A stretch of DNA of 64,000 nt from Chloroflexaceae bacterium (GTDB lineage Bacteria; Chloroflexota; Chloroflexia; Chloroflexales; Chloroflexaceae), in contig JANQID010000010.1 in NCBI GenBank assembly GCA_028282325.1, forward strand, positions 1 to 64,000, in the 5' to 3' direction. The notes beneath the pieces were generated by a model. It worked only from the letters and a program-made list of their open reading frames with translations, did not search any database and was not told the origin of the DNA. This document shows positions 30,456-33,511 of this stretch, piece by piece (the first letter of the stretch is position 1; each line of letters starts with the position of its first letter). Both the position numbers and the translations under genes were made by a program.

Positions 30456-30597
30456 GCCTGCCTGCGAAACTTAATGCCGCCTTCGATGTGTCAACGGATT
30501 CAGTATAGCACAGTGATGCCGCGTGGTATAATGTCTTTCGCGAGGCATCTATACATCGTTAATATACTGTAATGATGTGCGTAATACGCGCGGAGCT

Positions 30598-33156
30598 ATG
30601 AACAACCGCCCGGACAACCCCTCGGAGCGCGCCAACCCCCAGGTCGACCTGGGCCCATACAATCGCGTCGAGCGCTTGGCCCTCGGCGACATCGTCGGCG
30701 CGGACAAGGTCGGCGGTGATAAGGTGCTGGGTGATAAATACATCCAGATCTTCATCTACACCGGTCCGGATCGCCCGCCCGACGATACCGCGCGCTCTGC
30801 GCTCGAACAGGCCTATCGTAGCGAGATTATCACCCGCTACATTCTCTGGGAGGCGCGCTACGTCCCGCTGCCGATCAAAGCCGACGGGCGGGCGCAGGCG
30901 GCCGGGTTTGTCGGCGAGCGTGAAGAGCTCTTCTTGGAAGCGCTTCGCGACGCCGCGGTCGCCGAACATACAACCCCGGAGCGCCACACCTTCACCGACC
31001 TGCGCGAAGGTCTGAAGCGTTACAACGACCTGTTGCTGCTCGGCCCGCCCGGCGGCGGCAAGACCACCGCGCTCTGGCGGCTGGCGCTCGACCTGGCCGA
31101 GGACGGGCTGCTGCATGGCGACGACGCCGCGCCGTTGCCGGTCTTCGTGCGCCTGGGCGCTCTGGACAAACAGCAGACGCCGTTCGAGCTGTTGCAGACC
31201 GAAATGGCGAGCGCGGCGCGGGAAGATGCGAGCGGGCGGCGTTTCGCGCTCGATGCCCACCGGCTGCTGGCGCCGCTGCTGCCGGAGTTGCTGGAGCAGG
31301 GGCGGCTGGTTTTGCTGTGGGATGGGCTGAACGAGACGCCGCGCGCGCTGTTTGCCGCTGCCGCGCGCATGCTCGAAGAATTTCGTAAGGAATACCCCGG
31401 CCGGTTCGGCGGCCCGTACAACCGCAGCGTGACCACCTGCCGCACCGATGACCACGCCCAACTGTTGGAGCAGGTCAAACCCGATCCTTTCCCGGTGCAG
31501 CGGGTCGCGGTGCAGGGGCTGGACGCGGAAAGCATGCGCCTGATGGTGCAACGCCGGCTGGGCGCCGACCGTGGCCAATCCCTGCTCGACGCGCTTCAAC
31601 AACCCCAACACCGCGCGCTGGCCGGTCTGGCCCGCACGCCGCTGCTGCTCACGATGATCTGCGAAGTCTACGCGGCGGCCGAGAGCCTGCCGACGAACCG
31701 GGGCCGGTTGCTGCAAGACTTTGTCGCCCAGCGCTGGAGATGGGAAGCGCAACGCCAGGGTGATGCCTGGATTCCCGCCACGACCCAGGGGCGGGTGCTG
31801 GCGCGGCTGGCCTACGCGATGACCGAAAGCCGGGGGCGCGGCACCAGCGTGGCCTGGGAATGGGCCGAACGCGAACTGCGCACCGCCGCGCCGGATGTCG
31901 AACCGACCCATCTGCGGCGACTGGCCCGCCGGGCCGACTTGGTCGAGATGATCGGCGAGGAGCGCGCGCTGCGCTTCAGCCACCAGCTGATCCAGGAGTA
32001 TTTCGCGGCGCTGGAATTGCGCGCCAGGATCGCCGCGATCGTCGCCCAACGCGGCGAGATCGCGCCGGACGATCTGCGGGCCTACGCGGCGCCGGGCAAA
32101 CGCACCGGCTGGGAGGAGACCCTACTGCTGCTGGCCGGCATCGAGGGCGATCAGGGCGACGCGCACCGGCTGATCCGCGCCTTCCTGAGCCAGCCGCTTC
32201 AGGCGGCGCGCCTGCTCCAGGCCGGGGGCGAGGATCTCGATCCGGCGTTGCTAAACGAAGTGGGTGATGAGTTTGCCGTGATGATGGCCGACGAGCGCGT
32301 GCCGGCGCTTCAGCGGATCGAGGCGGGGCAAGCGCTCGGCGAGATCGGCGACCCGCGCCCCGGCGTGTGCGACCTGCCGCCGCCTATGGTCGAATTTCCC
32401 GGCGGCAGCTTCGTGATCGGCGAGCCCAGGGGTAAGCATCGATTCGATAATGAAATCAACGACCAACCGCTGACCATCGCCCCCTTCGCGCTGGCGCGCT
32501 ACCCGGTGACGAACGCCCAATACAAGCTGTTTGTGGACAATGGCGGCTACGACCCGGACGCGCCCTGGTGGCGGACCGACCCGGACGCGCAAACCTGGCT
32601 GCGCAACAACGGGCGCACGCAGCCGCGATACTGGGACAATGCGCGGTTTGCCCGCCCCAACCACCCGGTCGTCGGCGTCACCTGGTACGAGGCGACGGCC
32701 TTCTGCCGCTGGCTGACGCAACAGGTGAACAACGGCATCGTCTACAGGCTGCCGAGCGAGGCCGAGTGGGAGTATGCGGCGCGGGGCGCCGTGCGCCGCA
32801 CGTACCCGTGGGGCGCTGCCGAACCGGATGGCGAGCGGTGCAACTTCAACTGGATCTACGGCGGCCCGACCGCCGTGGGCTGCTTCCCATCCGGGGCGAC
32901 GCCGGAGGGGCTGCTTGACATGGCCGGGAACGTCTGGGAATGGACGCGCTCGGAATTCCGATCCTACCCCTACGATCCAACCGACGGGCGCGAGAACGCA
33001 ACTGAAACAGGTCGAAAACGATTTACACTGCGCGGCGGATCGTGGGGCTACTATCGCGATAGCGCCCGTTGCGCCTGTCGCCGCGCCGGCTATCCCGATG
33101 TTGGCAGCGACCTCTACGGCTTCCGTCTCGCCCATTTGTTCTCTTTGCCTTCGTAA
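30598..33156 (+). CDS. NACHT NTPase fused to a C-terminal FGE-sulfatase (C-type-lectin-fold) domain
   Basis: About 852 aa (a GTG at 30577 would add 7). Residues about 29-50 are a GD repeat (LGDIVGADKVGGDKVLGDKY) seen in other STAND proteins. The NACHT domain has Walker A LLGPPGGGKTTALW (Lys155) and Walker B VLLWDGLNE (Asp242). Helical and NACHT-sensor-like sequence follows to about 590. The FGE-sulfatase domain (594-852) has PVTNAQYKLFVDN, LPSEAEWEYAARG, LLDMAGNVWEWT and LRGGSW/GFRLAH. The catalytic Cys pair of true formylglycine enzymes is not in place, so it is likely a ligand-binding C-type-lectin fold. NACHT proteins sense an intruder or signal and oligomerise. The end looks hypervariable. 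A TATAAT lies at 30526-30531. Confidence 0.9.
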   Translation: MNNRPDNPSERANPQVDLGPYNRVERLALGDIVGADKVGGDKVLGDKYIQIFIYTGPDRPPDDTARSALEQAYRSEIITRYILWEARYVPLPIKADGRAQAAGFVGEREELFLEALRDAAVAEHTTPERHTFTDLREGLKRYNDLLLLGPPGGGKTTALWRLALDLAEDGLLHGDDAAPLPVFVRLGALDKQQTPFELLQTEMASAAREDASGRRFALDAHRLLAPLLPELLEQGRLVLLWDGLNETPRALFAAAARMLEEFRKEYPGRFGGPYNRSVTTCRTDDHAQLLEQVKPDPFPVQRVAVQGLDAESMRLMVQRRLGADRGQSLLDALQQPQHRALAGLARTPLLLTMICEVYAAAESLPTNRGRLLQDFVAQRWRWEAQRQGDAWIPATTQGRVLARLAYAMTESRGRGTSVAWEWAERELRTAAPDVEPTHLRRLARRADLVEMIGEERALRFSHQLIQEYFAALELRARIAAIVAQRGEIAPDDLRAYAAPGKRTGWEETLLLLAGIEGDQGDAHRLIRAFLSQPLQAARLLQAGGEDLDPALLNEVGDEFAVMMADERVPALQRIEAGQALGEIGDPRPGVCDLPPPMVEFPGGSFVIGEPRGKHRFDNEINDQPLTIAPFALARYPVTNAQYKLFVDNGGYDPDAPWWRTDPDAQTWLRNNGRTQPRYWDNARFARPNHPVVGVTWYEATAFCRWLTQQVNNGIVYRLPSEAEWEYAARGAVRRTYPWGAAEPDGERCNFNWIYGGPTAVGCFPSGATPEGLLDMAGNVWEWTRSEFRSYPYDPTDGRENATETGRKRFTLRGGSWGYYRDSARCACRRAGYPDVGSDLYGFRLAHLFSLPS
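33046..33117 (+). other. Candidate DGR variable repeat inside the NACHT-FGE gene
   Basis: Codons 817-840, between the invariant RGGSW and GFR motifs. All 24 consecutive codons end in C or T, whereas the rest of the gene often uses G-ending codons. The residues GYYRDS, C.C, RAGY and VGSDLY fall where diversity-generating retroelement targets of the FGE type carry residues templated by AAC or AAT codons. Adenine-directed mutagenesis of AAY yields only NNY codons. No reverse transcriptase or template repeat was seen in this window, so this is a hypothesis. Confidence 0.5.
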
Positions 33157-33286
33157 TAGCCGATAGCCGATACACGATAGCCGATAGGGCGGCACGATAG
33201 CCGATAGCCGATAGTCGATACACGATAGCCGATAGGGTGGCAAGATAGCCGATAGCCGATACACGATAGCCGATAGGGCGGGCAAG
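33156..33286. repeat. Tandem CGATAGCC array (three higher-order units)
   Basis: Three units of 41, 48 and 42 bases (33156, 33197 and 33245 onward) each consist of ATAGCCGATAGCCGATA, a CACGATAGCCGATAGGG part and a GGCA-type end. The array begins at the last base of the NACHT-FGE stop codon. The rest of the gap to 33632 holds a palindromic element and no gene. Confidence 0.9.
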
Positions 33287-33374
33287 TGATGAGCCGGACG
33301 TTCCGCATCGCAGTGCGGAGTAGGGGCGAAACGCCTTTCGCCTCGACGCTGAAAGCGGGGCGTGGCGTGAAGCT

Positions 33375-33511
33375 GCCAAACCATATGGGAGACACCGCAT
33401 GGTGTCATTCTGAGCGCAGCGAAGAATCTCAGGTTGCAATAACGCCGAGACTCTTCGCCTCCGCTACGCTCCGGCTCAGAGTGACATGCGGTCTCGTCAT
33501 TTTCGCTTGGT
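33375..33511. repeat. Dispersed palindromic element, diverged copy 3
   Basis: The core GTCATTCTGAGCGCAGCGAA and its partner GGCTCAGAGTGACATGCGG match the elements at 3297 and 49679; the outer ends (CCAAACC, GCTTGGT) are degraded. Boundaries are approximate. Confidence 0.65.

Follow-up and report, generated by a model that had tools for sequence, protein, structure and literature searches.

A NACHT-FGE gene of a Chloroflexaceae bacterium with a C-terminus probably written by a DGR and no cognate template found in its own assembly

Does the C-terminus of a NACHT-FGE gene in a Chloroflexaceae bacterium bear the marks of mutagenesis by a diversity-generating retroelement (DGR), an established bacterial means of producing novel binding surfaces, and, if so, is the gene still being rewritten? 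The gene lies in a 64,000-nucleotide stretch of DNA, analysed here as a whole and hereafter called the window, where it occupies 30598..33156 on the plus strand (852 aa; ORF list and Pfam), with an ATG start at 30598, its stop at 33156 and an in-frame GTG upstream at 30577.

Domain architecture and the run of NNY codons

The initial annotation, made from the sequence alone, had described the product as a NACHT NTPase joined to an FGE-type domain, and Pfam confirmed both parts. The NACHT NTPase domain (PF05729; aa 146-320; 31033..31557, plus strand) scored 31.1 bits against a cut-off of 26.7, with the Walker A Lys155 (31060-31062) and the Walker B Asp242 (31321-31323), both located by motif position on the plus strand, just where they had been claimed. 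The FGE-sulfatase domain, of C-type-lectin fold (PF03781; aa 595-845; 32380..33132, plus strand), scored 184 bits; it was also recognised by phmmer, and its AlphaFold2 model (pLDDT 86) had EgtB, ToxD and FGE as top Foldseek matches. A scan of named genomes for relatives identified distant ones only, the best at ~30% over the whole length and some of them from Chloroflexi; these served the structure alignment and were unsuited to comparison of the variable repeat (VR).

The annotation had also held that the catalytic Cys pair is lacking, which turned out to be half right: by motif reading, the residue that we take to be the equivalent of human FGE Cys336 is not a Cys; however, Cys825, which lies in the template-fixed RCA motif, presumably occupies the position of human FGE Cys341. 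In the C-terminal region of the protein Cys occurs only at 825 and 827. Formylglycine-generating enzyme, which has the same fold, has paired active-site cysteines, whereas the window domain is without the full pair and has its VR in the active-site region; we consider enzymatic (FGE) activity of this domain unlikely.

As in DGR targets, the VR lies at the 3' end of a gene with a ligand-binding fold and is built of NNY-type codons. Its core (GYYRDSARCACRRAGYPDVGSDLY; 33046..33117, plus strand), which agrees with the templates of relatives at most non-adenine sites, comprises the 24 consecutive codons ending in C or T that had been reported initially, and the run proved to reach further, to 33135 (30 codons); the VR segment itself extends from 33046 to about 33132. 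The core is followed by a fixed 3' end (GFRLAHLFSLPS; 33118..33153, plus strand) that is common to targets of the same class, and homology to relatives' templates stops after GFRLA. Given the C-type-lectin fold, the varied residues would form the ligand face of the FGE domain.

Such a run might in principle arise without any DGR, whether by chance, through biased codon usage or because the FGE domain is under ordinary diversifying selection, as local codons are 52% NNY and several residues (Y, D, C) have NNY codons only. However, the probability of 24 NNY codons is 1.2e-4 even when the amino acids are given along with local codon usage (1.3e-7 from the local NNY frequency), and the longest NNY run elsewhere, in the rest of the gene and six neighbouring genes, is 10 codons. 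Further evidence against this explanation comes from the templates of relatives, described below.

Templates in sister genera

In relatives, the same-class C-terminus reads RGGSW...ARCAxR....P.......GFRLA[HR]LFSLP. NACHT-FGE targets of this class adjoin an RT and a template in five genomes of sister genera (G007, G004, G023, G010 and G033), and in G034 the target adjoins an Avd-like gene and a template; in all, cassettes with template and/or RT alongside the target are found in six other genomes. In one of these targets (G004:C98, 2712-5906) the VR has an extra base and the C-terminal frame is shifted; its template and RT look intact.

The template closest to the window VR is that of G007, which reads TCG TGG AAC AAC AAT CGA GAC AAC GCC CGT TGC GCC TAT CGC and then AAC AAC AAC AAC CCT GAT AAC GAC AAC GAC AAC AAC GGT TTT CGT CTC GCC. 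The relatives' templates have AAC/AAT at the variable codons of the window gene, and the fixed codons GCC CGT TGC GCC. CGC are identical. In the cognate VR/TR pairs of G007, G034, G023 and G033, 14-17 adenines differ and 0 other positions do. Set against the G007 template, the window VR has 21/30 adenines changed and 6/63 other bases (Fisher p 5e-9), all six of the latter at third codon positions, a specificity measured against relatives' templates only, the own-genome template being missing. Templates of different genomes differ from one another at 2-17 non-adenine positions, mostly third positions; the window VR therefore resembles the relatives' templates as closely as these resemble each other, as would be expected of an exact copy of an own template that we have not seen. 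Third-base identity between the window gene and the G007 target was also higher in the VR (0.79) than in the upstream FGE domain (0.46), at an amino-acid identity (0.46) that is the same in both regions.

This coincidence of fixed and variable codons with relatives' templates, together with the raised third-position identity, leaves the explanations that dispense with a DGR scarcely credible. These sequence comparisons give strong support to adenine-directed DGR mutagenesis as the process that wrote the C-terminus. A retroelement belonging to the clade that sister genera carry today would have copied a template with AAC/AAT codons, random bases would have been put at the template adenines and the copy would have been written into the window gene, the expected outcome being NNY codons on the binding face of the C-type-lectin-fold FGE domain.

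DGRs of the same genome and the missing template

The initial annotation had proposed looking in the genome for a DGR RT and a matching template; the former exist, and no template matching the window VR was found. The assembly (4.6 Mb, 140 contigs, estimated completeness 99.98%) encodes three RTs, two of which are DGR enzymes, on contigs C49 and C54. Both carry the DGR RT motif [IVL]GxxxSQ. On C49 a target VR is followed by RT (PIGNQTSQ), Avd and template; compared over 60 bases, template and VR show 11 differences, each of them at an adenine of the template. On C54 an RT (PIGNLTSQ), an Avd (exceeding the NCBIfam cut-off for DGR protein Avd) and a template precede a NACHT-FGE gene, and over 60 bases 14 adenines and 0 other positions differ. 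Both DGRs are complete and appear to be working, each having a PIGNxTSQ RT, a bAvd-family protein and a TR/VR pair with adenine-only changes, and their adjoining targets belong to other classes, with other C-termini. The third RT (G000:C16:6623-9898; 465 aa, with RVT_1 matches in two stretches) was rejected as a DGR enzyme; it adjoins cas1 and a CRISPR array (repeat CTATCGAGGAATGCCCCGCTCTGAAGGGGTTTGAAAC) and is accordingly CRISPR-associated. G042, G029 and G048 also have RTs whose alignment falls into two pieces like this.

With its own RT, Avd and template, either DGR might be supposed to diversify the window gene in trans, the more so as C54 carries the second-best match to the class template. 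However, neither template fits the window VR (at ≤3 mismatches). In addition, a tree of 27 DGR RTs, all from the bacterium's own order, placed the RTs that serve the window target class in one clade (100/99) that excludes both own-genome DGR RTs, which fall in other well-supported clades and adjoin targets with those other C-termini. On template mismatch and RT phylogeny we rejected action in trans by C49 or C54, and regard it as very improbable. The RTs of a second target class (LRAAYR...LARHL) likewise form one clade; one RT clade per target class means that RT and target class travel together, and the RT of the window class is missing from the assembly.

The searches for a cognate template gave a consistent picture. 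When the VR pattern was searched across the own assembly, each base being permitted to be A and ≤3 mismatches accepted, the only match was the VR itself; the class template pattern identified no template for the window VR in that assembly; and blastn of the VR and of the G007 template against the own genome identified only the VR, its paralogues and the C54 template of the other class. Neither an RT nor a template follows the window gene.

These negative results must be read with the state of the assembly in mind: of its 140 contigs, three (C54, C60 and C4) break off within FGE genes, and failure to find a template is therefore no proof. The window gene could still be under diversification if the cell has a cognate RT/template cassette that the fragmented assembly lacks; this cassette might lie, e.g., beyond the broken end of C4, and could have worked in cis in the past or be working in trans today. 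The FGE module on C4, a 3495-base contig that stops before the variable region of its FGE gene, is 92.5% identical to that of the window, and C54 and C60 break exactly at the VR boundary. Moreover, the window VR has no NNA/NNG codon, compared with 1-2 in two broken paralogues, which counts for its having been recently written or kept, and targets in trans are known in Thiohalocapsa (PMC10907252). Against this stand the completeness estimate of 99.98%, at which we nevertheless identified no template and no third DGR RT in the assembly, and the occurrence of an orphan target in a one-contig genome. We therefore hold a still-active cassette to be possible but doubtful, and give the remaining probability mainly to an orphan, frozen target. 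The breaks of C54 (both ends) and C60 (start) share one VR boundary (...EGTDVRSL), which would be expected had the variable repeat or duplicated targets disrupted assembly.

The one-contig genome is the related G042 (5.8 Mb), in which the VR of a NACHT-FGE gene equals the G034/G003 templates at 64/65 non-adenine sites and has 17/28 adenines changed; this contig has no template match and no DGR RT, its only RT being of the kind that aligns in two pieces like that of C16. A similar case is G019, where the VR equals the G034 template at 65/65 non-adenine sites and no template of the window class was found. As G042 is a single contig, orphan targets need not be an assembly artefact.

The window gene looks at present like an orphan target, either frozen after loss of its cassette or cut off from a cassette missing from the assembly, the frozen state being the one we would favour. 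The initial suggestion of a DGR-diversified, self-changing sensor accordingly divides in two: the writing is upheld by the relatives' templates, and present activity is not, the assembly offering no matching template and only DGR RTs of other clades. Taken jointly, a DGR-written VR, an FGE domain that would sense ligands on behalf of a NACHT switch, and a gene that is now an orphan target make up a reading in which we have high confidence.

Paralogues, known relatives and possible role

Twelve stretches of the own genome match FGE-sulfatase, and three paralogues (on C125, C140 and C4) have the C-terminal class or the FGE module of the window gene. The VRs of C125 and C140 keep 22-23/24 NNY codons. 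The C125 gene is frameshifted in its NACHT part and the C140 gene is truncated, and their VRs show 17-18 non-adenine differences from the closest class template; with at least 17 such differences, and with both genes broken, we rejected them as proof of one shared template.

The module common to the window and C4 spans 32334..32828 (plus strand; 92.5% DNA identity by blastn), while the N-terminal parts of the two proteins have ~34% amino-acid identity when the comparison is split, with the boundary of the domain graft at a GDPRPGV motif. A near-identical FGE module on different NACHT parts indicates that the module has moved between them, and transfer is the most likely account of this sequence pattern. 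The two otherwise different proteins also have in common a GDxVGxDKVGGDKVxxDK motif near the N-terminus (~30688-30742 in the window).

STAND-NTPase/CLec DGR targets as a kind are already known, and it is the orphan state that we consider most worth following. Such targets, served by RT clade 5D, were described in multicellular bacteria, e.g., for Thiohalocapsa DGR 3 and DGR 6 (Dore et al. 2024, PMC10907252), and hosts of that DGR lineage include filamentous Chloroflexi. Several DGRs per genome, remote targets and VRs without a matching template in the genome were described there as well, as was, for Thiohalocapsa, domain shuffling together with hypermutation (PMC10907252); remote targets escape the detection of Roux et al. 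2021 (PMC8144416), and Kaur et al. 2020 treated related conflict systems (PMC7159879). Like the window gene, the STAND-CLec targets combine a central NACHT/nSTAND part with a single C-terminal CLec/FGE domain carrying the VR; as here, there are several DGRs and targets per genome, the same CLec class occurs on different N-terminal parts, and some targets are without a cognate template in the assembly (PMC10907252). Unlike them, the window gene is solitary: neither RT, Avd nor template adjoins it, and no effector or adapter domain was recognised. The likeness to clade 5D targets is one of architecture, the window-class RTs being placed only in our own 27-RT tree.

A second known relative is TvpA of Treponema denticola, which to our knowledge has no NACHT part. 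TvpA (2y3c) shares with the window protein an FGE-type CLec domain with a VR at the C-terminus, and the phmmer match between them (E 2.8e-9, query residues 128-258) includes the VR.

With regard to function, the FGE domain is most likely the ligand-sensing tail of the NACHT switch, and a bound ligand would free the NACHT part or make it oligomerise and in this way set off a response, probably in defence. The role would be one in defence or kin recognition. The Avs and other bacterial NACHT anti-phage proteins resemble the window protein in joining a NACHT NTPase to a C-terminal sensor; however, their sensors recognise conserved proteins of phages, and hypermutation of these sensors is not known, whereas the window protein appears DGR-written, and the N-terminal effector domain that marks them was not recognised in it by Pfam, PADLOC or NCBIfam.

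The neighbouring genes comprise an anti-sigma/SpoIIE-type regulatory cluster, a rhomboid protease, an ANTAR response regulator and a PMT_2/TPR membrane protein, and searches with Pfam, PADLOC and NCBIfam recognised no effector domain or gene in or near the window protein. PADLOC matches of the neighbours were rejected as defence systems, shared cNMP-binding or receiver domains explaining them. This lack of recognised defence genes or effector among the neighbours would suit a function in kin or partner recognition, or other signalling in a multicellular bacterium, rather than in phage defence. Dore et al. raised kin recognition by analogy with fungal heterokaryon incompatibility (PMC10907252). 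We nevertheless judge a role outside phage defence the less likely one, as protection against phages is known for bacterial NACHT and Avs proteins that have C-terminal sensors (reviewed in PMC10907252) and the window protein has a match, weak and partial, to the NACHT anti-phage protein EruA in NCBIfam.

The gene is a clear further case of what has been proposed for multicellular bacteria, the hypermutation of NLR-like sensors. In it the scar of hypermutation can be read without the mutator: the gene sequence predicts the template, which was then recovered from sister genera. With such orphan targets, among them that of the single-contig G042, which has no DGR, one can test whether sensors written by DGRs become fixed and are retained after diversification, a question that bears on anticipatory immunity in bacteria. 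More tentatively, we speculate that in this lineage DGRs write NACHT-linked sensors, that recombination carries the FGE module from one NACHT part to another, and that the mutator is then lost or left behind, with selected sensors retained as a fixed repertoire. If this were true, the window gene would represent a sensor archived intact and the two broken paralogues retired ones, and such sensors would bear a readable NNY scar that is missed by tools requiring an RT plus a template.

Dispersed repeats surround the 3' side of the locus. Short repeats of the CGATAGCCGATA type lie directly after the stop codon (33156..33285, no strand assigned), and ~33-base matches of this type occur at many other sites in the own genome and in genomes of the family. 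A second dispersed repeat at 33372-33456 (~85 bases, 84-91% identical) contains CTGAGCGCAGCGAAGAATCTCAG, and this second repeat is also found near several NACHT-FGE or DGR loci of the own genome (L026, L028, L029, L117 and L120).
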